Below are positions 104 to 17,914 of a stretch of DNA of 26,830 bases, one piece after another. The position numbers and the translations under genes were made by a program. The stretch is from a virus. The first letter of the stretch is position 1, and each line of letters starts with the position of its first letter. Below the pieces are notes generated by a model. The model saw nothing but the letters and a program-made list of their open reading frames with translations. It was not told the origin of the DNA and ran no database searches. The stretch is from positions 1 to 26,830 of the IMG/VR virus record IMGVR_UViG_3300049597_000173. One strand, written 5' to 3'.

Positions 104-180
104 CCGTAAGACTACTGCAGCGCAAGTGTTTAATTTTGCACAACAATAGTTTCGCCGAATGCACGGCTCATCAGTTACGG
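104..180 (-). ncRNA. hammerhead ribozyme A (type I, extended stem III)
   Basis: Read on the minus strand, the sequence has stem I strand CCGTAA (180-175), the core CTGATGA (174-168), stem II GCCG/CGGC with a 6-nt loop, GAAA (153-150), stem III, then TC and the second stem I strand TTACGG (109-104). Stem I is a perfect 6 bp. Stem III is longer than in the other four copies: CTATTG/CAGTAG (one G-U), a 2x2 internal loop, then GTGC/GCGC and a 14-nt loop. All invariant core nucleotides are present. Cleavage is predicted after the C complementary to base 110, between 110 and 109. The stop codon of the gene at 175-402 is in stem I. Confidence 0.9.
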
Positions 181-402
181 TGAATTATCGAAATCTTTTA
201 AGAAATCGCTAAATTGAGAATCGATCCATTCATACGGATCCCCGGTTCTCGCCTTGGCGACTCCATAAGGCATTTCGTTTGATTGACAATAATAGTCAAA
301 CAGTGCGTTAAATAAATTAACGGTTAAACCTTGTCCATCACGGAATCGATTAATGTCGATAGCGTAGCGGCGATTTAATACTTCAAAATCATTTACATTC
401 AT
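175..402 (-). CDS. hypothetical protein, 75 aa
   Basis: Not recognised. It is a soluble, acidic, aromatic-rich 75-residue protein (Tyr, Phe and Asp are common, for example the stretch LFDYYCQ at about 34-40), with no membrane segment or known motif visible. Its start overlaps the end of the 399-869 gene by 4 nt, so the two are translationally coupled. It is the last gene of its module: its TAA stop (177-175) forms part of stem I of hammerhead A. A start-proximal ATPase or nuclease motif is absent, so no function is proposed. Confidence 0.7.
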   Translation of the reverse strand: MNVNDFEVLNRRYAIDINRFRDGQGLTVNLFNALFDYYCQSNEMPYGVAKARTGDPYEWIDSQFSDFLKDFDNSP

Positions 403-869
403 AATGTATCCTTTATATATTCATATTTACCGTATTCACGGCATCTTAATTCTTCTTTAAACCATTCGCGCAATTGTCCTTGCACTTGAGCTTGAGTGTC
501 GAGTATCGCCATTATATGGTTGTCTGACAGTTCAGCTAGTGGGACATAGCGCTTTGGCTGATCACCTTTGGGACCGTAAGTGCCCCAATGCAAACTTCTC
601 CTGATTACGTCGAAAGAGTCATCAGAATAAATCGACAACTCATCGTATGGCGCATCGTCATGGCGATTACGACGAAGGTAATCATTACCTCCATCAACCA
701 TATACTCTTTACCGTTCTTATCGATATAGGTTTGGTAATGGTGACGGCTTAGCGATCGTAAGATCGTGCCATCAGGAGTTCGTATTTGGTTTAAGACGAT
801 AAAGCGTTGGGCAATGCCAAGCTCTTTCGCTATACTGTTTTCAGCTTTATTAGAAAATTCGTCTGTCAT
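399..869 (-). CDS. conserved phage hypothetical protein, 156 aa
   Basis: The middle of the protein (RTPDGT at 31-36, YMVDGGNDYLRR near 56-67, and RSLHWGTYGPKG near 91-102) resembles, from memory, a family of functionally unassigned proteins common in tailed phages that carry the same pattern of TPDG, VDGG-DY-RR and F/HWGTYG-GDQP-KY. No catalytic motif or membrane segment is evident. It sits in an overlapping string of genes (175-1350), starts 9 nt after the 878-1135 gene and overlaps the next one by 4 nt. The role is unknown; an early-expressed accessory protein is likely from the position. Confidence 0.75.
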   Translation of the reverse strand: MTDEFSNKAENSIAKELGIAQRFIVLNQIRTPDGTILRSLSRHHYQTYIDKNGKEYMVDGGNDYLRRNRHDDAPYDELSIYSDDSFDVIRRSLHWGTYGPKGDQPKRYVPLAELSDNHIMAILDTQAQVQGQLREWFKEELRCREYGKYEYIKDTL

Positions 870-877
870 AGTATTCC

Positions 878-1135
878 TTAAATCTCAAATACGACTAAGC
901 GACCAGGATTTTGCCATTCAGCAAATAATCCTTTAGAGCGCAATAGCTCTGTGATTTTAGGACTTACGCCAAACTCCCAATCGGGAATTCGGTATCCATC
1001 ATAATAATCACACCATAAGTAAGACGTAGCCTCTTCAGCAGAAATGCTAAAGTTGCCGTTATCGTCGCAGTGCTCATACACTGGACAACCGATTTTCTTC
1101 AAAGCCGTAAAGGCTGCTTTATATTTCATTTTCAT
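878..1135 (-). CDS. conserved phage hypothetical protein, 85 aa
   Basis: An 85-residue acidic protein with an F-S-I-S-A-E-E segment (28-34), a W-C-D-Y-Y-D-G-Y segment (41-48) and a C-terminal W-x-NPGRLVVFEI end. Small phage proteins with the same order (FTISAEE, WADYY, FGV-P-I, W-NPG) are common in phage genomes and have no assigned function; that match is from memory. Its start overlaps the stop of the 1132-1350 gene by 4 nt (coupling), and it precedes the 399-869 gene. No membrane helix or enzyme motif is visible. Confidence 0.7.
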   Translation of the reverse strand: MKMKYKAAFTALKKIGCPVYEHCDDNGNFSISAEEATSYLWCDYYDGYRIPDWEFGVSPKITELLRSKGLFAEWQNPGRLVVFEI

Positions 1136-1350
1136 AATGATTCCTTTGTGTTATTTAAAATTTCGTCATGAAATGCTAAGAAGTCTTTACATAGATTTCT
1201 CATACGCAAAAATGCGCTGCGCTCATGCTCATTCATATCAAGCGATTCTACATCATACGCTTCGCTCATAGCGTCCACACACTGTTCAAGTGCGCTTTCA
1301 GTATTTTCAAACATGCAATAAGACATGTTCGGTATGTTACTATTTGGCAT
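1132..1350 (-). CDS. hypothetical protein, 72 aa; first gene after hammerhead B
   Basis: Not recognised. A 72-residue soluble protein, acidic and Met-rich. It is the first gene downstream of hammerhead B: after the predicted cut at 1378/1377 the mRNA leader is 27 nt, contains AAAGGAAT, and leads into the ATG at 1350. Its stop overlaps the start of the 878-1135 gene. It therefore heads a four-gene module (1350 to 175) bounded by ribozymes B and A. Confidence 0.65.
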   Translation of the reverse strand: MPNSNIPNMSYCMFENTESALEQCVDAMSEAYDVESLDMNEHERSAFLRMRNLCKDFLAFHDEILNNTKESL

Positions 1351-1371
1351 AATATTCCTTTTATAATAAGT

Positions 1372-1421
1372 GTTAAAGACCTCTCACGAGGTTTCGTCCA
1401 TTGAGGACTCATCAGTTTAAC
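1372..1421 (-). ncRNA. hammerhead ribozyme B (type I)
   Basis: Minus strand, in order: stem I GTTAAA (1421-1416), core CTGATGA (1415-1409), stem II GTCC-TCAAT-GGAC (1408-1396), GAAA (1395-1392), stem III CCTC-GTGA-GAGG with a GNRA tetraloop (1391-1380), TC (1379-1378), and the second stem I strand TTTAAC (1377-1372). Every helix is perfectly paired and all conserved core bases are present. Cleavage is predicted between 1378 and 1377. The TAA stop of the 1417-1653 gene (1419-1417) is inside stem I, and the next gene starts 22 nt beyond the ribozyme. Confidence 0.96.
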
Positions 1422-1653
1422 TTAATACAGCAATCAACGTATCTTCATACGCTTTAACGAAAAAGCGGGTTTGCTCTTGCTCCGTTAAATGGCCACTTGT
1501 GCGAGCCATAAACTCATCACGAGTTTTATCCATACGTTGCTCTAATACGCTCATATCGCCATTGCCAACTTCTAGCCATATCTCATAAATACGGTAAAGA
1601 TCGGTATGGAGCTGAGTGAGCGCCAACGAAATCATAGTGTCTTTTACAGTCAT
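1417..1653 (-). CDS. hypothetical protein, 78 aa
   Basis: Not recognised. A 78-residue, probably all-helical soluble protein, slightly acidic, with no membrane segment. Its start overlaps the stop of the small membrane-protein gene at 1653-1763 by one base (TAATG). Its TAA stop is embedded in stem I of hammerhead B, which makes it the last gene of the module lying between ribozymes C and B. No function is proposed. Confidence 0.65.
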   Translation of the reverse strand: MTVKDTMISLALTQLHTDLYRIYEIWLEVGNGDMSVLEQRMDKTRDEFMARTSGHLTEQEQTRFFVKAYEDTLIAVLS

Positions 1654-1763
1654 TATATTCCTCTACTTTCTAAGTGTAAACCAAAAAACAAAAAAGCAAA
1701 AAAGACCATTAAGATGATTACCCATCCAATGATCTCTCCAACAGTCGGTTCTTTATAATCCAT
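1653..1763 (-). CDS. small single-pass membrane protein, 36 aa
   Basis: A 36-codon gene missed by length cut-offs. The protein begins MDYKEPTVGE and then has one long hydrophobic stretch (residues 11-29, IIGW to FFG, with VFFAFLFF at its core), ending in a short polar tail (HLESRGI). Both ends fit exactly: its ATG (1763-1761) overlaps the stop of the 1763-2086 gene, and its TAA (1655-1653) overlaps the start of the 1417-1653 gene, each by one base in TAATG. This nested coupling is the main support for it being real. The role is unknown; small phage membrane proteins sometimes act in exclusion or lysis control. Confidence 0.65.
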   Translation of the reverse strand: MDYKEPTVGEIIGWVIILMVFFAFLFFGLHLESRGI

Positions 1764-2086
1764 TAGTATTTTCCTTTACTATTGCGTGGATCAACGACAT
1801 AATCGTCGTCCAACTCTTGACGTGAGTTAAAGTTTACTTTATACTTAAAGCGACCACACTCTTTGATTACACCAGTGCCATCATCCATTAGGAGACGAGC
1901 ACGCTTAGTAATAGGCATAACCATATTCCAACGGTCATACACCAATGTGTCAAGCATAACAGACTCTTCAAGCTCGCGACCACTTAGGATATTTTCATAA
2001 TCCACAATAACGCGAAACTCGACAGACGTATACCACTTTCCGTCTATTTCTACGATAAAATCGTATGGTTTAAATTCTTTTTTCAT
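1763..2086 (-). CDS. hypothetical protein, 107 aa
   Basis: Not recognised. A 107-residue protein, apparently beta-rich (alternating hydrophobics in FIVEIDGKWYTSVEFRVIVDY near 10-30), soluble, ending in a basic tail. It is the first gene after hammerhead C: the leader after the predicted cut is about 20 nt and carries AAAGGAAA seven bases before the ATG. Its stop overlaps the start of the 36-aa membrane protein. Confidence 0.7.
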   Translation of the reverse strand: MKKEFKPYDFIVEIDGKWYTSVEFRVIVDYENILSGRELEESVMLDTLVYDRWNMVMPITKRARLLMDDGTGVIKECGRFKYKVNFNSRQELDDDYVVDPRNSKGKY

Positions 2087-2100
2087 AATATTTCCTTTTA

Positions 2101-2151
2101 ATATAAGACTGGATTTCTCCAGTTTCGTCGTTCCCGACTCATCAGTTATAT
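2101..2151 (-). ncRNA. hammerhead ribozyme C (type I)
   Basis: Minus strand: stem I ATATAA (2151-2146), CTGATGA (2145-2139), stem II GTCG-GGAA-CGAC (2138-2127), GAAA (2126-2123), stem III CTGGA-GAAA-TCCAG (2122-2109), TC (2108-2107), and the second stem I strand TTATAT (2106-2101). All three helices are perfect and the core matches the hammerhead consensus. Cleavage is predicted between 2107 and 2106. The stop codon of the 2146-2571 gene is the last three bases of the first stem I strand. The next gene starts at 2086. Confidence 0.96.
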
Positions 2152-2571
2152 GTAAGCATTGATCAATGCTGTTGAATAGTTAATAGATGCTTTTGCACGC
2201 TTTAAGTTTGCTTTATGGTCGCCAACATATTGAGACCATATCACTCCTGAGTTTTTAGCTCTAGCGTCTTTGTGTGTCATTAATTCTCTAATACGTGAAT
2301 GTCCTTCCATACCTACTGGAAATATATCCCACATTTTAGCTAATGCCCGGGCATCACCACTAATAAATGCCTTTTTATTAGCAGCATTAACTTCATTAAT
2401 CGCTTCTTTTAATACTTTCCATGAAGCAATTTCTTGGGCGCGCTCAGCGCTCAGCGTTGTTGCTACATCTTTAATAGCTGTAGATAAAACTGGACCACTG
2501 GCTTTTAAACCTTTGGTCATTGTTTTTGCAATTTTATTTATCTGTGCTGCTGTTACTTTAAAGCTTTTCAT
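2146..2571 (-). CDS. hypothetical protein, 141 aa
   Basis: Not recognised. A basic, Ala/Lys-rich, helical 141-residue protein (N-terminus MKSFKVTAAQINKIAKTM). The composition (many Lys, Ala and Ser, few aromatics) would suit a nucleic-acid-binding protein, but no motif proves it. It starts 22 nt after the DUF3102-like gene, with AAGAAGGAAT as its Shine-Dalgarno. Its TAA stop forms part of hammerhead C stem I. Confidence 0.65.
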   Translation of the reverse strand: MKSFKVTAAQINKIAKTMTKGLKASGPVLSTAIKDVATTLSAERAQEIASWKVLKEAINEVNAANKKAFISGDARALAKMWDIFPVGMEGHSRIRELMTHKDARAKNSGVIWSQYVGDHKANLKRAKASINYSTALINAYI

Positions 2572-2592
2572 AAGATTTATTCCTTCTTTATA

Positions 2593-3387
2593 TTATTTAA
2601 ATACTTCTTTTAATTGAGATTTAGCGTGCTTAATATGCTCTTTAATCTCTTTTGTGTTATTAAATACAGTGTTATTTTCTCTTTCAAGAGCTTTACACAC
2701 ATATCCATTGTTTTCAGCAAATGTTTTCATTTCTAAGATCCATGAATATAATTCAATATCGTCTAGAAATGCTTCGCGATGGCTTTCAATTACCATTTCA
2801 GAATATTGCTTTTTAACGATAGGCTTTAAATCTGAAATATCATTTTCAATTTCTTGATATTCAATTGCTTGCTTTTCGTAGAAAGCATCTAATTCTTGGC
2901 TAGTCATACCAGTTCGTTCTTCTTCAGCGAGCTCATAACCCGCTTTAGCGACAATTTCTCGCTCAGTTTCAGGTAGCTTTTTAAGAACTTCCTTAACTTG
3001 AGCAACGGTCATCTTTTCACCTTTAGCTAGTTTTTGCTCAACTAAAGCAACCTTTTCAGGATCGTTAGATGGTTTTGATAACTGTTGAAGAATAGTAATC
3101 GATTGGCTTGGAAGAAAATCAATTTTCCTCCCAAAGCGCTCATAGACTAGAATGCAGTTAATTGCGTTTTGTTTCTCAAATCCTACTTCTTCTAACCAAC
3201 TACCCCAACGACTATTTACGCCATTGCGAGTTGCTAATTTCTCATTTACTTCTTTGAGATGCTTACCAACTTCAAGATACGCTTCAACGGTGCGTTGAGC
3301 TGCATTAAGAACCAATTCCTTCTTTTCAGTTAGAAATTGCTCAATTTTTACATCTTTTACTTCGACGTCAATTACGTCATTTTTCAT
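2593..3387 (-). CDS. DUF3102-like coiled-coil protein, 264 aa
   Basis: The N-terminal third has the pattern of the DUF3102 family: a long helix ending in A-YLEVGKHLKEVNEKL (about 36-51), then W-G-SWLEEVGFEKQNAINCILVYERFG (about 62-86), the usual 'W-WL-GFS-A--M--F' signature. The rest is charged and predicted helical/coiled coil, with a K/E-rich middle. DUF3102 proteins occur on phages and mobile elements, often near DNA-processing genes, and have no settled biochemical role. It is the first gene after hammerhead D; the leader has AAAGGAGATCTT before the ATG at 3387. Confidence 0.65.
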   Translation of the reverse strand: MKNDVIDVEVKDVKIEQFLTEKKELVLNAAQRTVEAYLEVGKHLKEVNEKLATRNGVNSRWGSWLEEVGFEKQNAINCILVYERFGRKIDFLPSQSITILQQLSKPSNDPEKVALVEQKLAKGEKMTVAQVKEVLKKLPETEREIVAKAGYELAEEERTGMTSQELDAFYEKQAIEYQEIENDISDLKPIVKKQYSEMVIESHREAFLDDIELYSWILEMKTFAENNGYVCKALERENNTVFNNTKEIKEHIKHAKSQLKEVFK

Positions 3388-3406
3388 AAGATCTCCTTTT
3401 GTGAAT

Positions 3407-3457
3407 AATCTAAGACCACTTTCGTGGTTTCGTCGTTACCGACTCGTCAGTTAGATT
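3407..3457 (-). ncRNA. hammerhead ribozyme D (type I, CUGACGA core)
   Basis: Minus strand: stem I AATCTAA (3457-3451), core CTGACGA (3450-3444), stem II GTCG-GTAA-CGAC (3443-3432), GAAA (3431-3428), stem III CCAC-GAAA-GTGG (3427-3416), TC (3415-3414), and TTAGATT (3413-3407). Stem I is 7 perfect bp. The single core difference from the other copies (C for U) is at position 7 of the standard numbering, which is naturally variable in hammerheads. Cleavage is predicted between 3414 and 3413. The upstream gene's stop (3461-3459) lies just outside stem I. Confidence 0.95.
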
Positions 3458-3458
3458 G

Positions 3459-3629
3459 TTAGAACCATCCTAAGATTGCTCCTAGTGGGAATATAAATAC
3501 TCCACAAGCTCTTGCAATTGTTTTACCGTCCACTTGTAGCTGTGAAAAAAGTTTAACGATGTTTGCGATATAACCCAATACAGCGGCAATCACAACAACG
3601 ATAAACACGATAGAAAATGCTAATTCCAT
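3459..3629 (-). CDS. small membrane protein, 56 aa
   Basis: A 56-codon gene below usual ORF cut-offs. The protein begins MELAFSIVFIVVVIAAVLGY, a strong N-terminal membrane helix, then a short polar stretch (KLFSQLQVDGKTIARA, about 26-41) and a second hydrophobic segment ending IFPLGAILGWF. Similar two-helix proteins with a V-DGK-IAR linker and F-PLG-ILG end occur in many phages with no proven role (from memory). The Shine-Dalgarno is AAAGGAAT seven bases before the ATG at 3629. It is the last gene of the module between ribozymes E and D. Confidence 0.75.
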   Translation of the reverse strand: MELAFSIVFIVVVIAAVLGYIANIVKLFSQLQVDGKTIARACGVFIFPLGAILGWF

Positions 3630-3640
3630 TTTTAATTCCT

Positions 3641-3790
3641 TTATTTAGCTAATAAATATAAACCAATGTTACTAAAGGCGTAGCCAGTGTAAACAATAAG
3701 GTTTGGTAAAGATCCTTTGAAATATTGGTCTAATCCAATACCAAAGTAAACTAATCCAATCACAATGATTAAGTATTTCATTTCAAACAT
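3641..3790 (-). CDS. small hydrophobic protein, 49 aa
   Basis: A 49-residue protein whose first half is hydrophobic (MFEMKYLIIVIGLVYFGIGL) and whose second half has another apolar, Tyr-rich stretch (NLIVYTGYAFSNIGLYLLAK), so probably two membrane passes. Its ATG (3790-3788) overlaps the stop of the 3790-3960 gene by one base, and a strong GGAGG lies about 7 nt upstream of the ATG, within the end of that gene. Function unknown. A second in-frame Met at residue 4 could also be used. Confidence 0.65.
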   Translation of the reverse strand: MFEMKYLIIVIGLVYFGIGLDQYFKGSLPNLIVYTGYAFSNIGLYLLAK

Positions 3791-3960
3791 TATAAGTCCT
3801 CCACAGCTAGGAAATTTGCATTTCCAGCGAAGATTTCTTTAAACGCTTTGATGAGTTCATCATCGTTGAGCTTATAAGTAAAGCTTGAAGTATCACACTC
3901 CATATGTATGGCGCTAACCATACCTCCACGGTTAAAACCGTTATATATAATTTTATTCAT
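3790..3960 (-). CDS. hypothetical protein, 56 aa
   Basis: A 56-residue soluble acidic protein, beginning MNKIIYNGFNRGGMVSAIHM and ending in a helical segment (DDELIKAFKEIFAGNANF). The leader has GAAAGGAAAA before the ATG at 3960, matching the Shine-Dalgarno style of the whole leftward operon. Its stop overlaps the next ATG by one base. Not recognised. Confidence 0.65.
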   Translation of the reverse strand: MNKIIYNGFNRGGMVSAIHMECDTSSFTYKLNDDELIKAFKEIFAGNANFLAVEDL

Positions 3961-4096
3961 AATAATTTTCCTTTCAATAATAAAATAATTTAGTGAGGAT
4001 TTTTACGTTATCCTCGAAACGGTTGAGTTCGATTACTTTTACGTCGTTCTGTTCAACTCTGGCTCGACGGTGCTTCTATGGCTTTCACCATATTAT
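3961..4096 (-). other. leader between hammerhead E and the 3790-3960 gene; possible structured RNA or broken small ORF
   Basis: This 136-nt stretch begins at the predicted cut of hammerhead E and has no clean gene. It contains inverted repeats: gaggat/atcctc (3995-4000 with 4010-4015), and two interleaved pairs, gttga/tcaac (4022-4026 with 4053-4057) and cgtcg/cgacg (4042-4046 with 4065-4069). Their order A-B-A'-B' allows an H-type pseudoknot. Alternatively, an ATG at 4091 reads only 12 codons, while the next frame is open for 28 codons to a TGA at 3976-3974, as if one base were missing from a small gene. I cannot decide between the two. Confidence 0.4.
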
Positions 4097-4148
4097 GCAT
4101 AATACTACCTTTCGGTAGTTTCGGCTAATAAAGCCTCATCAGTTATGC
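4097..4148 (-). ncRNA. hammerhead ribozyme E (type I, GUA cleavage site)
   Basis: Minus strand: stem I GCATAA (4148-4143), CTGATGA (4142-4136), stem II GGCT-TTATT-AGCC (4135-4123), GAAA (4122-4119), stem III CTACC-GAAA-GGTAG (4118-4105), TA (4104-4103), and TTATGC (4102-4097). All helices are perfect. The residue before the cut is A rather than C, still within the NUH rule for hammerhead cleavage. The cut is predicted between 4103 and 4102. The TAA stop of the 4143-4331 gene (4145-4143) is in stem I. Confidence 0.95.
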
Positions 4149-4331
4149 TGATTTAAATGTATCATAAGTTTGTTTACTTACAACCATTGTCGTAATTTTA
4201 CTATAGTTTGCATCAACCCAAAGCGATAATTTGCTTGGATGGTTGTTGCTTGTAAAGTAAGATTTATCGTGTATCTTTTTAGATTTCGAAACTTTCGTTT
4301 CTACACCATTTGAGATTAAATAATAAAACAT
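4143..4331 (-). CDS. hypothetical protein, 62 aa
   Basis: Not recognised. A basic, Ser/Lys/Thr-rich 62-residue soluble protein (N-terminus MFYYLISNGVETKVSKSKKI). The ATG at 4331 has AAAAAAGGAAATAAC as leader and lies 13 nt after the stop of the 4345-4686 gene. It is the last gene of the first module of the leftward operon; its stop is inside stem I of hammerhead E. Confidence 0.65.
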   Translation of the reverse strand: MFYYLISNGVETKVSKSKKIHDKSYFTSNNHPSKLSLWVDANYSKITTMVVSKQTYDTFKSA

Positions 4332-4344
4332 GTTATTTCCTTTT

Positions 4345-4686
4345 TTAGTTAGTTTTTAATTTATCTAATTGCGCTTGCAATTTTGCCATTCTTTCGGCAA
4401 TTTTGCTTTCTTGCAATTTAGTACGTTCTGCTTTCTTAGCTTCACGTTCTTGACGCTTTACGTCTTTTTTCGCTTTATTCGCAGCTTTGATTTCTTTCTC
4501 AATTCTACGGAATTCGGCTTTCGCTTCATCTGTGAATTTTGCAGATTTATATCCATTTGCTTGAATAATATTCGATAATTCAACTGGATCCATAGTCTCA
4601 GTTAATACATTTTCTGTAATAACAACTTTAGTTTCAGTTAATACCAATTTACCATTAGATAATGTTACATTTAATTGATTTTTCAT
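4345..4686 (-). CDS. coiled-coil basic protein, 113 aa; first gene of the leftward operon
   Basis: The N-terminal half is an ordinary mixed sequence (MKNQLNVTLSNGKLVLTET). From about residue 50 to the end it is a highly charged, Lys/Glu/Ala-rich helix (for example KEIKAANKAKKDVKRQEREA), almost certainly a coiled coil. It is the promoter-proximal gene of the leftward transcript, and its ATG follows AAAGGAAATTATATATT. No function is recognised; such proteins can bind nucleic acid, but nothing here proves it. Confidence 0.7.
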   Translation of the reverse strand: MKNQLNVTLSNGKLVLTETKVVITENVLTETMDPVELSNIIQANGYKSAKFTDEAKAEFRRIEKEIKAANKAKKDVKRQEREAKKAERTKLQESKIAERMAKLQAQLDKLKTN

Positions 4687-4932: not shown

Positions 4933-5174
4933 GTCGTTTAAAATCAATAACTTAGGGTGAGGCTGCCCAAAATGACCAAAATCTGTCAAAAAAGCCTTTA
5001 GAATCAATAACTTAGCTTTTCGGTAAAAGTCGTTTAGAATCAATAACTTAGAGAGGCTGCCCGTGGGTAAAATAGTCAATAGAATCAATAACTTAGGCGT
5101 TAGTAGCTCCATGGAAAGTTGTGCAAAATCAATAACTTAGGGCACTAAAATAGCCTTTAGAATCAATAACTTAG
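4933..5174. repeat. six direct repeats with core AATCAATAACTTAG (iteron- or promoter-like)
   Basis: Six copies of AATCAATAACTTAG end at 4955, 5015, 5051, 5095, 5140 and 5174, all in the same orientation, with centre spacings of 60, 36, 44, 45 and 34 bp. Most are preceded by a looser conserved half (AAAAgtcGTTTAG or AAAAtaGcCTTTAG), giving a unit of about 27 bp. Both the base identity and the spacer variability argue for a protein-binding array. A translated minus-strand reading across it (repeating KLLILNDF) is a by-product of the repeats. Candidates are a replication-origin iteron array or a cluster of promoters for a phage-specific polymerase. Confidence 0.85.
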
Positions 5175-5184
5175 AGCACCCTCC

Positions 5185-5412
5185 CTTAGGTATACTAAGA
5201 GACCATCCAAGGCATATCCGCCTTAGGTATACTAAGACATGGTTCTACGATGGGTAGAGATCATAGAGCATTCTCCAGCTGAAACCATGGCTTGGAGGCA
5301 AGGACTTGACGAAGATTATGAGTAAGCAAGTTGATACAATGACCACTACATCTTTTACCCACCCACTAACCATAGGCTGCACCAGGGACATATCCGCCTT
5401 AGGTATACTAAG
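5185..5412. promoter_or_regulatory. three copies of palindrome CTTAGGTATACTAAG
   Basis: The 15-mer CTTAGGTATACTAAG (arms CTTAG and CTAAG around a 5-bp centre) occurs at 5185-5199, 5222-5236 and 5398-5412. The second and third copies are identical over 27 bp, including the upstream CATATCCGC. Perfect palindromic arms suggest a dimeric repressor or activator site. Between copies 2 and 3 the only reading frame is 28 codons from the ATG at 5239, with no Shine-Dalgarno, so I do not call a gene there. Confidence 0.7.
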
Positions 5413-5667
5413 ACAGAGGGGTGCTGGTGATAATATATATACCCTATACTATAGCATATGTTATAGATACCTTAAGATATGCTAAACATAGGTTCTCTTA
5501 TAGAGTAGCTATAGATACCTTAAGAGTCGCTTAGCATAAATACTTAGCGATATATGTTAGGTTATATCTTATAACAAATCCTATAGGACTTAACTACACC
5601 TTAGTAAAGTCTGTCCTACGATGTTTAACATATCCTTAACGCTGTATAAACTTAAAGAATATAATAT
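5413..5667 (+). promoter_or_regulatory. AT-rich rightward promoter region
   Basis: 255 bases without a supportable gene, extremely rich in TATA-like steps, immediately upstream of the rightward gene at 5668. ATAGATACCTTAAGA occurs twice (5463-5477 and 5511-5525); its reverse complement resembles the left part of the 5185-5412 palindromes, so this may be a half-site family. Several -10-like hexamers are present, but I cannot choose a transcription start. The first gene has only AAAGA as a weak Shine-Dalgarno. Confidence 0.45.
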
Positions 5668-6090: not shown

Positions 6091-6706
6091 CGATCCTAAC
6101 GCAAAGTTCCATGACGAGGACGATAGAAAATATTATACCACAGAGCTTACGCTAGGTGAATATATTGAGCGTGCTCAGATGGACGCAGACAGAGCCAGAA
6201 TGGAAGAAGCTGGAAAACGCTGGGAGATGCAAACAGCCCGAGAGAGACGCCTAGCGGCCTTGCTCGCTGAAGATCGCCCTTGCATAAATTATGAAACGGA
6301 AGATATCATGAAAGAAATAGATGCAGTAGATAGAGAATGCAAAGTAGCCACAAACGATAAAGTTGTCTTTGAGCCAGGAAAAGCTCCAAAGTTCGATGGC
6401 GGCAAAGCACCGATGCACTTAATCCCTGTAAAGCCACTTAAAGACGTCGCTGAGGTATTAGCATTTGGCGCTGATAAGTATGGTGCACAAAGTTGGCGTG
6501 AAGGTGAAATGATTGCCTGGTCAAGAAGTTACTCGGCGATTCTCAGACACCTAATGGCATTTCACTCAGGTGAGGATAACGACCCAGAGACCGGCAAGAG
6601 CCATTTAGCCCATGCAGCATGTTGTGTATTGATGTTATTAGAACACACATATGTTAATCCTGCAGGCGATGACCGCTTTAAGGATGGTGCTGAATTTAAT
6701 AAGTAA
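6080..6706 (+). CDS. DUF5664 dATP/dGTP diphosphohydrolase-like protein
   Basis: The first ~100 residues are charged and coiled-coil-like. The C-terminal half matches the DUF5664 (dGTP_diPhyd_N) pattern: KFDGGKAPMHLIP near 104-116, then AFGADKYGAQSWREGE, RHLMAFHSGEDNDPETGKSH, and LAHAACCVLMLLEH. Characterised relatives (MazZ of 2-aminoadenine phages) dephosphorylate dGTP/dATP, but many phages with normal DNA also carry this domain, and no PurZ or DatZ is in this window. The start at 6080 has GGAG seven bases upstream and overlaps the MazG-like gene. Substrate not assignable. Confidence 0.75.
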   Translation: MLASDPNAKFHDEDDRKYYTTELTLGEYIERAQMDADRARMEEAGKRWEMQTARERRLAALLAEDRPCINYETEDIMKEIDAVDRECKVATNDKVVFEPGKAPKFDGGKAPMHLIPVKPLKDVAEVLAFGADKYGAQSWREGEMIAWSRSYSAILRHLMAFHSGEDNDPETGKSHLAHAACCVLMLLEHTYVNPAGDDRFKDGAEFNK

Positions 6707-7675: not shown

Positions 7676-8125
7676 ATGAAAGGTGATGCCAAGCGCAACA
7701 CACAAGACGGCATGACAGACGCTTACCAAGCCGCTCTCGCGCTACAACCTCACGTCGACAAAGCGGTGCTAGGATTACCTCCCGCTGCACGAGGATTGAT
7801 GGAAATTGCAATTCCGTTGCGCCCGGCCACTTGGTGGAACCCAATATTCATACAGCAATTGCGCAATTTATGTGAAGCGATGTACCTATGTTCATTCTAT
7901 CATCGTAAAGAGATTGACGCCGCTCATGCACAGAACGTCAACGATGCTATGAAATTCAACAAACTTGCCAATTCCAAGATTCCAGTGATTCGCGCTCTGC
8001 AAGTCACTCTCCAACTAACACCATCATCTTTGCACGGGCAAGCTTCGCAGCACGCTGCAGGTTCTGTCGCCGCGCAAGAGATTGCCGATATTCTCCACGA
8101 CGTCACGGATCTATATGCTGCCTAA
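7676..8125 (+). CDS. probable terminase small subunit
   Basis: 149 residues, mainly helical, with no known catalytic motif. It is assigned mainly from context: immediately upstream of HNH and large terminase genes, the usual TerS-HNH-TerL order. The text (AARGLMEIAIPLRPATWWNP, NKLANSKIPVIRALQVTLQLTPSS) resembles P27-type small terminases, which bind the packaging site and regulate the large subunit. The start at 7676 is chosen over the open frame from 7541 because AAAGGAG lies six bases before it. It overlaps the HNH gene by 11 nt. Confidence 0.6.
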   Translation: MKGDAKRNTQDGMTDAYQAALALQPHVDKAVLGLPPAARGLMEIAIPLRPATWWNPIFIQQLRNLCEAMYLCSFYHRKEIDAAHAQNVNDAMKFNKLANSKIPVIRALQVTLQLTPSSLHGQASQHAAGSVAAQEIADILHDVTDLYAA

Positions 8126-12318: not shown

Positions 12319-13773
12319 TTGGCTGTATTTGAAATTTTGGCTGAAAAGTCAGCAAACGATCAACGCACATTCTTTTACGATAACATGACAAACGTCTTAA
12401 CCGACGAAACAGGATTGTTATACGCTTTTCCTGATAAAAGAGCGGACAACTCAGTTCCTGCTAAAATATTTAGCAAGGATGAACCGCTTAAGAAGTCTAA
12501 GCAAATTGGCTTTCTAAAGATTCAGTTAGGATTAGGTTGTAATTACTCTTGTGATTACTGCTCTCAGAAGTTCGTTGAGCGCGCCGATTCGACGTCTCCT
12601 AAAGATATCGCCGATTTTATGGCTAAACTAGATAAACTAGATATCACCGAAGAAAAAGGTCTTAAAGTTGAGTTTTGGGGCGGCGAGCCTTTGGTTTATT
12701 GGAAAACATTGAAGCCTTTGGCAGAAGCTATCCGCGAGAAGTTCAAGGATTGGAAGAGACAGCCTAAGTTCGCAATGATTACAAACGGATCGATTCTCAC
12801 TGATGATATTATCGACTGGTTGATGATGCAAGACTTCTCAGTATCGATTTCACACGACGGTCCTGGCCAGCACGTGCGAGGCCCAGACCCATTCGACGAT
12901 CCTGAGACAAAGAAGCGTTTATTAGGCTTCTATCGCATGATGACACGCCTTAACAAAGGCATTAGCTTTAACTCTATGCTATCGTCAAAGAATAAGAGCC
13001 GTAAGGCCATTTCAGATTGGTTTAGAGAATTAACAGGCGATCCGAATATTTCGATCGGCGAAGGCGGCATTGTTGATGCGTATGACGAAGATGGTATTAC
13101 TAACTCGTTAATTACTAAGCAAGACCACTTTGAGTTTAGACGTCTAGCGTTTTCTGATATCTTTACATCAGGCGGCGATATCGCGTTTAAAATGCAACTA
13201 GATAAGATTAACAACTTTACTAGAGATGTGCTTTCGCATAAACACGCGTCGACATTACCTCAAAAATGTGGTATGGATTTAGAAGACGTGTTAGCTGTTG
13301 ATTTGCATGGAAATGTAATCACATGTCAAAACGTTAGTGCTGTAGAAACTTCTAAAAACGGCGAGTCCCACTTAGGTGGTTCACTCGACGACTATGATAA
13401 TGTTTCTATCACTACTTCTACTCATTGGGCAAAACGCGAAGAATGTCCTAAGTGTCCAGTGCTTCATCTTTGTAAAGGTGCATGTATGTTTCTAGACAAT
13501 AAGTTCTGGAAAATTTCTTGCGCTAACGCTTACTCAGATAACGTTGCACACTTTGCCTTAGCCTTTGAAAAGATGACTGGGTATATCCCAATCCACATTA
13601 AAAATGATGACTTACCTTTGGAACGCCAAGATGTCTTTGGTACGTTGTTTGAGCACAAAGAAGAGTCTGTTCGTAAGGTTATTCCTATCAAAATTGTGAA
13701 TCATATCGCAGAGATAGTGGATAACGTTCCTATCTACTCTAAATCGGAGGTCGCTTATGACAATCCAAGGTAG
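12319..13773 (+). CDS. radical SAM/SPASM protein-modifying enzyme
   Basis: 484 residues, TTG start after AGGAGATATAAA. The radical SAM cluster is C74-x3-C78-x2-C81, and GGEP (121-124) is the SAM-binding motif. The C-terminal SPASM domain is complete: C317-x13-G331-x4-C336, C376-x2-C379-x5-C385-x3-C389, C401, which bind two auxiliary 4Fe-4S clusters. SPASM enzymes modify peptides or proteins (sulfatase maturases, thioether-forming RiPP enzymes). The next gene overlaps by 17 nt and encodes a 16-Cys domain, an obvious candidate substrate. The reaction cannot be read from sequence. Such an enzyme is rare in a phage; the host must supply an electron donor for reduction of the clusters. Confidence 0.93.
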   Translation: MAVFEILAEKSANDQRTFFYDNMTNVLTDETGLLYAFPDKRADNSVPAKIFSKDEPLKKSKQIGFLKIQLGLGCNYSCDYCSQKFVERADSTSPKDIADFMAKLDKLDITEEKGLKVEFWGGEPLVYWKTLKPLAEAIREKFKDWKRQPKFAMITNGSILTDDIIDWLMMQDFSVSISHDGPGQHVRGPDPFDDPETKKRLLGFYRMMTRLNKGISFNSMLSSKNKSRKAISDWFRELTGDPNISIGEGGIVDAYDEDGITNSLITKQDHFEFRRLAFSDIFTSGGDIAFKMQLDKINNFTRDVLSHKHASTLPQKCGMDLEDVLAVDLHGNVITCQNVSAVETSKNGESHLGGSLDDYDNVSITTSTHWAKREECPKCPVLHLCKGACMFLDNKFWKISCANAYSDNVAHFALAFEKMTGYIPIHIKNDDLPLERQDVFGTLFEHKEESVRKVIPIKIVNHIAEIVDNVPIYSKSEVAYDNPR

Positions 13774-14662
13774 CGGCCCGATAGCCGTAAGTAATATTAG
13801 CACAGAAATAGGACAGGCACCGACCTACACGACTTCTTTGAGTTTCTTGAACGGGCAAATCAAACCAGCGATTCGCCCAGCAACTCCTAAGATGTCTGCG
13901 TTTTATGGCTTAAGTTTCTTTCAAAACACCACTGAAGGCAACTGCGCTAATGGTAACTGTACAGAGAACTGTAACTGCGGCAATATTCAGTGCACCAACT
14001 GCTTAATTGCAGGCGGTGTTGACTGTGTAAACTGCGACCCACAGCCGTTCTTGCAAACAGGTGCTAACTGCGCTTGTACGTATAACTGCACCACTAGCGA
14101 AGTTTCATATGCATGTAACTGTGCTTGCAACTGTTCTAAAATCATTTGCTCTAAATTACATGAAAAAGGCCTTATGGCTCCGGTAATTTTCTCTGCAGAC
14201 CAGGCTTACGGCCGTTGGCTCTACAAGAATGATAAGGCAGTTTATCGTGGTTATATCCGTTGGGCTCGTATTGTAACGGCTTGGATGGATGGTAAAGGCC
14301 CTGCATATATGCCTTGGATTAAAGATCCTGTAGCTCGCTCTGAAGCACAGAAGCTTGCAATTACTAAGATGGCCATTAAGATTGGTACACCTTGGTCTGA
14401 GCATATGGCTTACCGCATGGGCGCATTGAAGCAAGATAATTTCCGTGGTCGTGTATTGATGAACATTGGCGTTCCTATCTGCCGTTTGTTAGATAAAGTT
14501 CCTCGTATTCGTGAAAAGAATAAACGCCACCGCTTGCCAGTATTGTATGCAATGTGGGCTGCTTTCTATGTTAGTGATTTTATTGCTGGCACAGCTGCTC
14601 ATATCCATTCAGTAGTTGAAAAGTTTTCTGCAAAGGATGTCTCTCATGCCAAGATCGACTAG
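13757..14662 (+). CDS. phage structural-type protein with Asn-Cys-rich domain
   Basis: 301 residues in three parts. Residues 1-53 (GSGPIAVSNISTEIG and later PKMSAFYGLSF) match the short 'ISLSDI-EIG ... MSDFYG' module found at the N-terminus of many phage tail or minor structural proteins. Residues 62-131 hold 16 Cys in 69 positions, ten of them in Asn-Cys pairs. Residues 134-300 are a helical, Trp/Met/Arg-rich domain (YIRWARIVTAWMDGKGP, GTPWSEHMAYRMG) that I do not recognise. GGAGG lies 7 nt before the ATG, inside the radical SAM gene, so the two are coupled. I infer a virion protein whose Cys domain is the radical SAM substrate. A CDP sequence at 93-95 recalls the sulfatase CxPxR motif but lacks the Arg. 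Confidence 0.7.
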   Translation: MTIQGSGPIAVSNISTEIGQAPTYTTSLSFLNGQIKPAIRPATPKMSAFYGLSFFQNTTEGNCANGNCTENCNCGNIQCTNCLIAGGVDCVNCDPQPFLQTGANCACTYNCTTSEVSYACNCACNCSKIICSKLHEKGLMAPVIFSADQAYGRWLYKNDKAVYRGYIRWARIVTAWMDGKGPAYMPWIKDPVARSEAQKLAITKMAIKIGTPWSEHMAYRMGALKQDNFRGRVLMNIGVPICRLLDKVPRIREKNKRHRLPVLYAMWAAFYVSDFIAGTAAHIHSVVEKFSAKDVSHAKID

Positions 14663-14894
14663 AACGTTTCCAACACAAGCCGATAAAGATCGCTATGCTC
14701 GTAATATTGAGTATTACTTCAAAGTAGAAGTGCCTGGCAAAATCGTAGCAATGTCAGCAGCCGATCGCACTAAAGCATTAGAGATGACAAAGAATTACGC
14801 CGATACATTATCAGCTGTTTTTCTTCCGCATGATTATAATGCTACAGTGCTTGCTGGTATTCCAATTCCTGCCGTGCCTGCTAAAAAGAAATAA
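14646..14894 (+). CDS. small protein, tandem paralogue 1, 82 aa
   Basis: 82 residues from the ATG at 14646, which has AAAGGA 8 nt upstream; the frame is open to 14616. It overlaps the end of the Cys-rich gene by 17 nt. Its central segment (D-DRYARNIEYYFKVEVPGKIVAMSAADRTK) is homologous to that of the next gene, so the two arose by duplication. Soluble, helical, with a Pro/Ala/Lys-rich tail. Not recognised; co-translation with the Cys-rich protein suggests a chaperone, carrier or structural partner. Confidence 0.65.
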   Translation: MPRSTRTFPTQADKDRYARNIEYYFKVEVPGKIVAMSAADRTKALEMTKNYADTLSAVFLPHDYNATVLAGIPIPAVPAKKK

Positions 14895-14903
14895 GGAGAA
14901 TTT

Positions 14904-15215
14904 ATGTTAGAATTAAAAATAGACTCTCCTGCTGATCTTGATAACTACCGCGCAGATATTGTGCATTACACTGATATCGATTTGTCTGGCAAAATCTTAG
15001 CGTTGCCACAAGCACAGAAGGATAAATTCTTCAAGATGATGGATACCTATCCAGCCATTATTGAGCAATTACTTCCTCCTGGTGTAGACATTCTTGAGCA
15101 TATTCAAGGTAAACGCTTTGCTGCTGCAAACGCAAGTCCACATCCTGGTATTGATTTTTCTTACGATGATCCAATCATTAAAGAATACGATATTTGGAAA
15201 GCAAAACAAGTTTAA
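14904..15215 (+). CDS. small protein, tandem paralogue 2, 103 aa
   Basis: 103 residues, Shine-Dalgarno AAGGAG. Aligns with the preceding protein over about 55 residues: D-DNY-ADIVHYTDIDLSGKIL versus D-DRYARNIEYYFKVEVPGKIV, then a helix ending LLPPGVD versus FLPHDYN. It has an extra acidic C-terminal tail (FSYDDPIIKEYDIWKAKQV). No known domain. It is the last gene before a strong hairpin at 15224, so it ends the radical SAM / Cys-rich transcription unit. Confidence 0.65.
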   Translation: MLELKIDSPADLDNYRADIVHYTDIDLSGKILALPQAQKDKFFKMMDTYPAIIEQLLPPGVDILEHIQGKRFAAANASPHPGIDFSYDDPIIKEYDIWKAKQV

Positions 15216-15223
15216 ACAAATAA

Positions 15224-15266
15224 CCCTATCTTGAAGGCCTAACCGCTTTCTTGATAGGGATTTATT
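15224..15266 (+). terminator. long two-part hairpin, terminator-like
   Basis: CCCTATC (15224-15230) pairs with GATAGGG (15253-15259); inside are a symmetric TT/TT internal loop, a second helix GAAGGC/GCTTTC (one G-U) and a 6-nt loop CTAACC. The hairpin is followed by ATTTATT (15260-15266), an imperfect U-tract. It could attenuate transcription or protect the 3' end of the upstream mRNA. The next Shine-Dalgarno (AGGAG) starts two bases later. Confidence 0.6.
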
Positions 15267-15275
15267 AGGAGCATC

Positions 15276-15920
15276 ATGAACGTTACACCGATTAGTCCTA
15301 CCATTACTGGTAAGTTTCTAAACGAAAACCCATTATGGAATTATCCTATTTGGGCCGTTGAAACCGACTTTGACGATACATTTAATGAAGTACTTATGGA
15401 TGAGCTCTACTCAGTAGCACAGGAGATTTCTCGCTCACCGACCCCACATCACAGTCTTTGGGATTACCCAAGGCCTAATCTTACAATTCTTCGGAAGATG
15501 CTCGACACGACTGTTACAGCGTGTGCGTATAGCATTCCAGAATTAAAAGACCTTAAACTTACATTCAAATCTCACATGGGTTGGCCTAACGTCCGCTCGC
15601 CAGGTTTGACTATAGATAATCACGCACACCCAGACACCTCATTTGCGGCTACTTACTATGTGAAGACGCCTAAAGATGGCGGTGACTTGTTGTGCTATAT
15701 GCAAGACGGTTCTATTAAACGAGTTACACCTCGTCCTGGCTTGCTAGTTGTGTTGCCGTTTTATATGTTACACGAAGTTGAGATGAATACTTCTGACGAA
15801 CTTCGAATCTCAATCTCTGCAGACTATTTCCAAATCGTAGACGAGCACGCTGATAATGCTCTTGTCTTGAAGAGTTGGTGCGATGATATGATGAAAATCA
15901 GAGGACAAAATGTTCGCTAA
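15276..15920 (+). CDS. Fe(II)/2-oxoglutarate oxygenase 1 (2OG-FeII_Oxy_5-like)
   Basis: 214 residues. The double-stranded beta-helix core has H116-A-H118-P-D120 followed by TSFAATYYV, GGDLL (135-139), then PRPGLLVVLPFYMLH166EV and ELR177ISIS. This matches the phage-common putative 2OG-Fe(II) oxygenase family, in which H-x-D/H and a distal His bind iron and a distal Arg binds 2-oxoglutarate. Probable hydroxylase of a protein, peptide or nucleotide; the substrate is unknown. It is the first of three different oxygenases in succession and overlaps the second by 11 nt. Confidence 0.85.
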   Translation: MNVTPISPTITGKFLNENPLWNYPIWAVETDFDDTFNEVLMDELYSVAQEISRSPTPHHSLWDYPRPNLTILRKMLDTTVTACAYSIPELKDLKLTFKSHMGWPNVRSPGLTIDNHAHPDTSFAATYYVKTPKDGGDLLCYMQDGSIKRVTPRPGLLVVLPFYMLHEVEMNTSDELRISISADYFQIVDEHADNALVLKSWCDDMMKIRGQNVR

Positions 15921-16434
15921 ACTTAACAAAGCGTTTGATCCTGTGCCTTACGATATTACAAGCACAGGCGTAGGATTTCTTATAGATGGTAAAGGTATTC
16001 AATACTACGATATTGCTACTGACAAAGCACAATTCTTTGCGGTTATACCTGAGCGCTTTAGAAAAGAGTTCTGCCTTCACTTAATGCATATCGATCGAGA
16101 TATTCCTCCGCATATAGATGATAAGATTAGAACATCGATTAATTTCTATATTCTAACCGAAGACTGCGAGACTAAATACTTTCGAGTAAATAAAAAAGCA
16201 TCTACACAGCAAATAGAAAATCAAACTAACGGCGTTATCTTTGATGAGTCAGAGCTTACCTTTGTTGATAGCTTTGTGGCACAGCCAGGCGAGGCTTGGT
16301 TATTAGACGTCACGCTGCCTCACAGTGTAAAAGCTAATCCACACTTTAAAGAGCGCCTAGCGTTTTCATTATCTACTGGCACTTTCTCCTACTCAGAGGT
16401 GTTATCACTTCTAAAGGAGACAGGTTGCTTATGA
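15910..16434 (+). CDS. Fe(II)/2-oxoglutarate oxygenase-like protein 2
   Basis: 174 residues. PPH68-I-D70-D--RTSINFYI provides the H-x-D motif plus the following strand; AQPGEAWLLDVTLPH138SV gives the distal His, and ER149LAFSLS the 2OG-binding Arg. The arrangement fits a small cupin-fold dioxygenase related to aspartyl/asparaginyl hydroxylases or phage 2OG proteins. Sequence unrelated to oxygenase 1 beyond the motifs. Shine-Dalgarno GAGG; its end overlaps the desaturase start. Confidence 0.7.
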   Translation: MFAKLNKAFDPVPYDITSTGVGFLIDGKGIQYYDIATDKAQFFAVIPERFRKEFCLHLMHIDRDIPPHIDDKIRTSINFYILTEDCETKYFRVNKKASTQQIENQTNGVIFDESELTFVDSFVAQPGEAWLLDVTLPHSVKANPHFKERLAFSLSTGTFSYSEVLSLLKETGCL

Positions 16435-17108
16435 TAGCCATCATTTATACGCTCGTGACTTGCCACCTTTTAATGGCAATGAATACTTTATATATTCACA
16501 GACATCATACTCATAGAGCAATCCAATGGAATCCATTTATGGTTCACTTTTGGAGAGTCATCGCGTGGTTTGATGGTATTCATACGAAAGAGTGGGTCGC
16601 TCAGCATCGCAGACATCACATGTATACGGACGTGCCCGGCGATCCACATTCACCTAACATCCTTGGCATTTGGAATATCGCTGTTAAAGGTTTCTTTATT
16701 AACATTTGGGCTCGCTACGGCTCAACTCCTTGGAATACTGCCGAAGAGTTGAAAGTGCACGGTCGCGGAACGCCTGACGATTGGTTAGAGAAAAACGTTT
16801 ACACTCGCTTTCTACGCGGTGGTCCATTAGTATTACTTCTTATCGATGTCTTACTCTTTCAATGGATAGGCGTCGCTATTTGGATTATACAGATGTGTTG
16901 GACTCCTTTGCTCACTACAACTGTTGTGACCGGTCTTCTACATCATAAGCGTCGCCGTAATTGGCCTGGCGCAAGTATGTTTTTAATTGGTGAAGAGTAT
17001 CATATTAACCACCACACTCGCGCTGCGAATGCTCGCTTTGGTAAATATGATTTAGGTTATTTTTATATTTGGGTCAGTTCTAAACTAGGCCTATGTCGCA
17101 TACTATAA
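16431..17108 (+). CDS. membrane fatty-acid desaturase-like protein
   Basis: 225 residues from ATG 16431 (ATGA overlap with the previous stop); a TTG at 16425 sits at a better distance from GGAG and may be used instead. Three His boxes are present: HRHHTH (23-28), HRRHH (59-63), HINHH (191-195), the di-iron ligands of acyl-CoA/acyl-lipid delta-9-type desaturases. Hydrophobic segments lie near 2-18, about 81-93 and 132-170. It would insert a double bond into (or hydroxylate) a fatty-acyl chain at the membrane. It is shorter than the usual ~300 residues, but all three boxes are intact. Unusual cargo for a phage. Confidence 0.9.
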   Translation: MIAIIYTLVTCHLLMAMNTLYIHRHHTHRAIQWNPFMVHFWRVIAWFDGIHTKEWVAQHRRHHMYTDVPGDPHSPNILGIWNIAVKGFFINIWARYGSTPWNTAEELKVHGRGTPDDWLEKNVYTRFLRGGPLVLLLIDVLLFQWIGVAIWIIQMCWTPLLTTTVVTGLLHHKRRRNWPGASMFLIGEEYHINHHTRAANARFGKYDLGYFYIWVSSKLGLCRIL

Positions 17109-17119
17109 CAGGATAATAA

Positions 17120-17914
17120 ATGTTCTACGAAGATGTTACAAGTTTAATTCCATTCGATCTTGCAAAACTGCAAGCAGATGTCAAGCAGCACGTCTTTACG
17201 CTAGGCCGCCAAATTATTCAAGGCGAAGAGTATGAGACTCCTGCATATCATGGTTTTGGTGGATGGTCATTAACCTCTCGCACTGGCGATTGGAAAGATG
17301 GCTGGGATTTTTTCCAAAACGATGAAGGCGAGGCAATGGAAGTTTATTTTCCAAAAGATCGTGATAACTACGAAGCATTGAAGTTCTTTGACATTGCTCA
17401 CTCGATGGAGCATAAAAATCCTACACAAGGATATGTTGGTGAGATTGCAAGAGTTATCGACGAAATCACGCTACTAGGCCTAACTCCTAGACGCGTACGT
17501 GTAACCTGTTTAAAAGCAAGAGCAAAGTCTCTTGTGCATCGTGATTCGGACTCAGACGACTATATGGCTCGTCTACATATTCCTTTATTCACAAACAATA
17601 AATGTGTTTTTATCTGTAATGGAGTTAATCTCCACATGGAGGCCGGTAAAGCCTACGCAGTATGGGTAAACCAATGGCATCAGATTCGCAATGATTCTGA
17701 TGAAGATCGTTACCATATTATTATGGACTTTTACGATACCAAGAAAGTAACTAAAACATTTCACTATGACGGCGATATACAGCAACTTGATGACCTTGCA
17801 ACTCGCATGCGCGTGAATATTGATAAAGCAGTTATTTCACCCGAACTCTATGAGAAGTTCGAAACAGTTAGAAAATCATTTGTGACTAAAGGAGAGATTC
17901 CAATAATCGCATAA
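17120..17914 (+). CDS. aspartyl/asparaginyl beta-hydroxylase-like oxygenase (third 2OG enzyme)
   Basis: 264 residues. The C-terminal half has the aspartyl/asparaginyl hydroxylase pattern: LVH140-R-D142 (iron), ARLHIPLFTN (R151), GKAYAVWVNQWH187QIRN (distal His), and DR197YHIIMDFYD (2OG-binding Arg). Family members hydroxylate Asp or Asn side chains in proteins. Because the neighbouring Cys-rich protein is full of Asn-Cys pairs, an Asn-directed hydroxylase is suggestive, but this is inference. The N-terminal ~100 residues are not recognised. AGGATAATAA precedes the ATG. Confidence 0.85.
   Translation: MFYEDVTSLIPFDLAKLQADVKQHVFTLGRQIIQGEEYETPAYHGFGGWSLTSRTGDWKDGWDFFQNDEGEAMEVYFPKDRDNYEALKFFDIAHSMEHKNPTQGYVGEIARVIDEITLLGLTPRRVRVTCLKARAKSLVHRDSDSDDYMARLHIPLFTNNKCVFICNGVNLHMEAGKAYAVWVNQWHQIRNDSDEDRYHIIMDFYDTKKVTKTFHYDGDIQQLDDLATRMRVNIDKAVISPELYEKFETVRKSFVTKGEIPIIA

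Follow-up and report, generated by a model that had tools for sequence, protein, structure and literature searches.

Why should a single phage operon carry, one after another on its coding strand, five motifs of the kind that cleave their own RNA? The stretch of DNA that raises this question, referred to below as the window, is the 26,830-base virus record IMGVR_UViG_3300049597_000173 of IMG/VR, a contig fragment. Genes for terminase, portal, capsid, endolysin and ribonucleotide reductase run rightward in the window, and small genes, mostly of unknown function, form a leftward operon at its left end. Spaced through this operon are five type I hammerhead elements. From their structure and conservation, the strand on which they lie and their position with respect to stop and start codons, all of which are observed, we conclude that they are probably (at roughly 80%) active ribozymes that serially cleave one polycistronic RNA into modules of two to four genes.

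A hammerhead descriptor applied to both strands of the window found exactly five full elements, all intercistronic and all on the minus strand; in its strict form the descriptor matched five times on this strand, and neither the plus strand nor any of 300 dinucleotide shuffles gave a match. These are the same five that a first-pass annotation, made from the letters alone, had described as complete type I hammerheads. In order of transcription, the first is a type I element at 4097-4148, with stems I, II and III of 6, 4 and 6 bp, a GUA triplet and predicted cleavage between 4103 and 4102. The second lies at 3407-3457 (7/4/5 bp, GUAA loop II, cleavage between 3414 and 3413), the third at 2101-2151 (6/4/6 bp, GGAA loop II, 2107 and 2106), the fourth at 1372-1421 (6/4/5 bp, UCAAU loop II, 1378 and 1377) and the fifth at 104-180 (6/4/8 bp with an extended stem III, a 6-nt loop II, 110 and 109). 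Each core consists of CUGAUGA or CUGACGA, GAAA and a GUC or GUA cleavage triplet, surrounded by three helices of which stem I is open-ended, the arrangement that identifies type I. Stem I is perfectly paired over 6-7 bp in all five, as had been claimed, with stem II of 4 bp and stem III of 5-8 bp, and the descriptor places the predicted cuts at the positions expected earlier (109, 1377, 2106, 3413 and 4102). Element 104-180, which is conserved in the related phages G002 and L247, was recovered with 39.4 bits (E 3.8e-8) by a covariance model whose training set of 29 phage hammerheads included the other four window elements and excluded this one. Long, variable inserts in stem III occur in some hammerheads: 104-180 in the window, 2333-2451 and 6008-6089 in L245, and 7723-7819 in the reverse complement of L244.

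Two close relatives of the window were found through terminase and motif searches and two further ones through a search with gene C of the operon. Counted over the whole record, G002 (L157) has seven hammerheads, G001 (L124/L232) seven, L247 (a 66.8-kb contig) eight and L249 (a 52.4-kb contig) seven, and in each of these phages, as in the window, they lie on one strand in one operon region. Since this operon has 7-8 hammerheads in the relatives, the window offers a truncated view of the array. The junction orthologous to hammerhead 4097-4148 was found in all five related phages. When ten orthologous junctions from five phages were compared, 486 of 555 pair comparisons were identical, 67 were compensatory, 2 were one-sided and none was broken; the loss of pairing in stems I-III among relatives, which had been named beforehand as an outcome that would tell against the ribozymes, was not seen at these junctions. 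An alignment of 29 hammerheads retains pairing in 97.8% of cells, with double changes in 12 pairs, and its covariation score is 0.643, compared with 0.153 for shuffles and at most 0.068 for slid controls.

The first-pass annotation had taken covariation as a sign of selection and not of recent copying. The absence of broken pairs and the 67 compensatory changes uphold the first half of that statement. The second half needs revision, since hairpins that make up a complete stem II or stem III, such as ACCACGAAAGTGGT and ACGCCGAGATGGCGT, recur at non-orthologous junctions. Some exchange or copying of hairpins between junctions did occur, judging from these repeats, so that the helices do not all have separate origins, and stems II and III owe some of their covariation to hairpins exchanged between hammerheads. 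The double changes in stem I, ATCTAA/TTAGAT to GTCTAA/TTAGAC and ATGTAA/TTACAT to GTGTAA/TTACAC, cannot come from such exchange and therefore provide cleaner evidence of selection.

A further indication of activity comes from a comparison of phage type I hammerheads. Where stem I has at least 6 bp, and in most cases it has exactly 6, two main classes of loop II can be distinguished. With NNAA tetraloops the base directly 3' of stem I is U in 89 of 89 cases, and a pyrimidine stands before stem I in 85 of the 89; with YNNNU pentaloops A follows stem I in 203 of 203 and precedes it in 202. Loop class and the base 3' of stem I thus agree in 292 of 292 elements, and the search patterns had left the flanking bases unspecified. 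The window elements obey this rule in four cases out of five. The correlation suggests a tertiary contact between loop II and stem I, as in natural hammerheads that are fast at low magnesium; a general requirement for loop-stem contact is stated in the text of Perreault et al. 2011 (PMC3088659). Being what is expected of a selected tertiary contact, it counts in favor of active ribozymes, and it separates small natural hammerheads into two classes, both of which can be synthesized for direct testing.

A survey of 350 distinct type I hammerheads, taken from viral contigs, reveals a fixed relation to the reading frames. Between -13 and +1 of CUGANGA, that is within stem I or the core, an upstream stop codon is present in 253 (72%) of the hammerheads and at 289 (9%) of 3137 non-hammerhead CTGANGA sites that served as controls, and in 64 of the 350 the upstream gene ends on the UGA of the catalytic CUGA. 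From the cleavage site to the start of the first open reading frame (ORF) the median distance is 27 nt. In the window, four of the five stops lie within stem I: TAA at 4145-4143, in the 5' strand of stem I of hammerhead 4097-4148, ends gene 4143-4331, and TAA codons at 2148-2146, 1419-1417 and 177-175 are found in the third, fourth and fifth elements. The remaining stop (3461-3459) is 1 nt ahead of hammerhead 3407-3457. Such embedding of stop codons may mean that translation gates cleavage: a ribosome terminating in stem I or the core would block folding, and cleavage would then report the density of translation upstream. Both the 72% and the double use of UGA favor a translation-coupled switch of this sort. 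However, genome compaction alone would also push an element against a stop, and as the explanation of the array we regard the switch as a possibility that is rather unlikely.

Serial self-cleavage, the explanation that we prefer, would proceed as follows. One leftward polycistronic RNA would initiate in the divergent region to the right of 4690, and each hammerhead would fold in the intercistronic gap just past the stop of the upstream gene and then cut itself, dividing the long RNA into separate mRNAs of two to four genes each. The upstream product would terminate, after the stop codon of its last gene, in stems II and III and a 2',3'-cyclic phosphate, and the downstream product would usually open with a leader of roughly 20-30 nt that starts with a 5'-OH and bears a ribosome-binding site. 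From what is generally known of bacterial RNA turnover, transcripts with ends of this type would probably decay more slowly. Such ends would be expected to resist 3' exonucleases as well as decay that depends on a 5' monophosphate, and the modules could therefore be expressed and decay independently of each other. Self-cleavage would take the place of internal terminators, promoters and RNase processing; in favor of this, the one minus-strand terminator-like site that a consensus scan flagged inside the operon is part of a hammerhead. We infer cleavage in the cell, the chemistry of the ends and the effect on stability from structure, conservation, strand and placement, and serial cleavage of a polycistronic phage mRNA, as first proposed, appears to be the best explanation of them.

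Several observations weigh against this conclusion. The window elements share the core, stem order and cleavage triplet of the Rfam family Hammerhead_1 (RF00163), but none of the five attains its gathering score of 34 bits. The Rfam search that the first-pass annotation had put forward as a check consequently gave a divided answer: three elements scored 32.5 (hammerhead 3407-3457), 30.2 and 29.3 bits, the others lower, and one array member in each of two relatives passed the threshold with 36.1 bits. Minimum-energy folds with 25-nt flanks, in a model that leaves tertiary contacts out of account, retain all three stems in two window elements, and in the other three stem I is displaced by alternative pairings. 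Element 104-180 departs from the loop II/flank rule. Finally, among 79 loci with gene C homologs, collected independently of ribozyme content, five have 6-9 hammerheads and 74 have none, so that the ribozymes are not required for the genes that accompany them. All 36 hammerheads at these loci are on the coding strand; in nine homologous loci that lack them, an Rfam search found no other ribozyme at gathering score. Membership in the RAGATH-1 hammerhead family (RF03152) was considered and rejected, a single element having matched, at 30.3 bits against a gathering score of 56.3.

Arrays are not confined to this lineage. Unrelated phage contigs carry them, for example nine hammerheads within 4.3 kb in G006 and seven in G003, and in a neutral motif scan at least two hammerheads were present in 22 of 68 loci having at least one full element. 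Loci with at least two were uniform in orientation in 85 of 85 cases, some of which overlap, with no mixture of strands. DNA comparison found no closer cultured relative of the window; terminase matches in isolates were all below 60% identity, the best being 52%, to HK97-like phages. When genomes were searched for the host, only one metagenome-assembled contig, titled Rubrivivax sp., contained gene C, and a type I model run on three cultured phages sharing this gene, in a search that had no positive control, gave no match. The motif TAGAATCAATAACTTAG was discarded as a marker of relatives because its matches are mostly due to chance, though L157 and L232 came from it. The cultured Agrobacterium phage OLIVR1 (MT234338, Schitoviridae) has a single type I hammerhead at 3960-4009.

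The gene content of the intervals is as follows, all on the minus strand. Module 1 (4143-4686) contains genes M (4345-4686) and L (4143-4331), which have no assigned function. Module 2 (3459-3960) contains K (3790-3960), J (3641-3790) and I (3459-3629), and module 3 (2146-3387) contains H (2593-3387) and G (2146-2571). Genes F (1763-2086), x (1653-1763) and E (1417-1653) make up module 4 (1417-2086), and D (1132-1350), C (878-1135), B (399-869) and A (175-402) make up module 5 (175-1350). The division into 2, 3, 2, 3 and 4 genes that had been reported matches the gene calls when ORFs of 36 and 49 amino acids are counted. No Pfam model scored above cutoff on the operon genes, and their PHROG matches are mostly to families of unknown function.

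With a slash for each hammerhead, the window reads M L / K J I / H G / F x E / D C B A / and G002 reads M / orfX / K J I / F x E / D C B A /. What chiefly sets the two apart is that G002 lacks the H-G block and, with it, one hammerhead. There, one hammerhead replaces the two that flank module H-G in the window, the junction falls at its 3' edge, and this single element carries sequence from the I side of the window, after which comes the window's F leader. Orphan genes with a hammerhead of their own are present in G002, L247 and G001, and L082 and L100 contain reordered segments whose breakpoints are at hammerheads. These patterns are suggestive of hammerheads as marks of exchange boundaries. 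They would be accounted for, as would the hairpins common to different junctions, if the elements acted at the level of DNA, as repeats forming recombination boundaries for the exchange of gene cassettes, with RNA cleavage incidental. A DNA repeat, however, needs no intact catalytic core, no compensation in stem I and no loop II/flank rule, and several other orphan genes were inserted without a hammerhead; a role at the DNA level is therefore improbable. The narrower proposal that hammerheads drive cassette exchange was set aside, since the events are too few and hammerhead-free insertions also occur. A composite picture, in which some phages punctuate whole operons with hammerheads in an all-or-none fashion, the ribozymes embed the stop codons, a gene block and its ribozyme move as a cassette, and ribosome termination gates cleavage, is one that we put forward tentatively, with real doubt that all of its parts will hold.

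Could stems II and III simply act as terminators or stabilizers of 3' ends, with no cleavage? The elements do stand directly behind stop codons, and the single minus-strand terminator-like site that a promoter and terminator consensus scan flagged inside the operon is stem III of element 2101-2151. However, stem III is not followed by a proper U-tract, and a hairpin role would neither conserve CUGANGA, GAAA, NUH and stem I nor set stop and start on opposite sides of the cleavage site, so that this explanation is very improbable. Hardly credible is the notion of non-functional or decaying selfish insertions, which would fit the patchy occurrence in five of 79 homologous operons but not the strict strand and stop/start placement, the strong covariation or the lack of any broken pair at orthologous junctions.

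Upstream of the leftward operon the window has six sense-oriented copies of CTAAGTTATTGATT (4942-5174, minus strand). Up to six sense copies occupy this position in all five related phages, and three of the five have single internal copies; positions in relatives are 14746-14937 and 6816 in L244, 675-815, 4247 and 8193 in L245, 2455 in L247, and 6112-6256, 9781 and 13573 in L249. The repeats appear promoter- or operator-like. A near-palindromic element, CTTAGGTATACTAAG, is present in three copies in the divergent intergenic region (5176-5415). After the first hammerhead, a leader of 110-140 nt (3961-4096 in the window) is conserved in the window, G002 and G001, and in G001 it contains a possible short ORF (MQNDVKVIEL...). 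The structural region contains, at 12319-13773 and 13757-17914, the gene of a radical SAM protein together with small proteins, one of them cysteine-rich, and ORFs that by sequence alone resemble 2OG-oxygenases or desaturases; this group is a possible phage-encoded modification cluster.

How do these arrays compare with known systems? The role of prokaryotic hammerheads has been called an open question in a review (PMC6155905) later than the 2011 paper. Given arrays of 5-9 elements, their fixed placement between stop and start, and pairing conserved at every orthologous junction compared, mRNA processing is the leading answer, and one that can be tested. Clustered phage hammerheads as such are of an already known kind. 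The text of Perreault et al. 2011 describes prophages in which, "on many occasions", multiple hammerheads flank one gene or a short block of genes, with clustered cases in Clostridium scindens, Azorhizobium caulinodans and a triple array in Agrobacterium tumefaciens; it proposes processing of long phage RNAs, and reports that tandem arrays cleave in vitro and the triple array in E. coli (PMC3088659). The earlier belief that phage hammerheads are known only singly, with serial processing undescribed, is contradicted by that paper. Like those clusters, the window's elements lie on the transcribed strand of a phage and flank its genes or blocks of genes; unlike them, as far as the text that names the triple array goes, 5-9 elements punctuate a whole operon. 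The words "stop codon" do not occur in its main text, and no cassette comparison was found in the parts consulted. Tandem type I hammerheads are also known in eukaryotic satellite DNA and retrozymes, as repeats of one unit that yield unit-length RNAs; an assignment to that type was rejected, since the intervals in the window hold different protein genes in each module.

Within the partial coverage of the literature, and with priority accordingly uncertain, what appears to be new is the operon-wide array of 5-9 elements, all-or-none among the 79 homologous loci, together with the embedding of stop codons, the loop II/flank rule and the gain and loss of cassettes. The same applies to an array in a cultured phage: Streptomyces phage R4 (NC_019414, 41776-49461, minus strand) carries in one operon nine type II hammerheads (RF02276) that exceed the Rfam gathering score; each of them follows an annotated stop codon at a distance of 3-40 nt, and no paper on them was found in the literature covered. 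In R4, the start codons annotated for gp76, gp79 and gp81 overlap or precede ribozymes and could be wrongly placed, and gp60.1, gp67.1 and gp75.1 coincide for the most part with ribozymes. The R4 array resembles that of the window in being serial, on the coding strand and within one operon; it differs in its type II permutation and in belonging to an unrelated actinophage that can be cultured, so that R4 on S. coelicolor constitutes a cultured pair carrying nine hammerheads.

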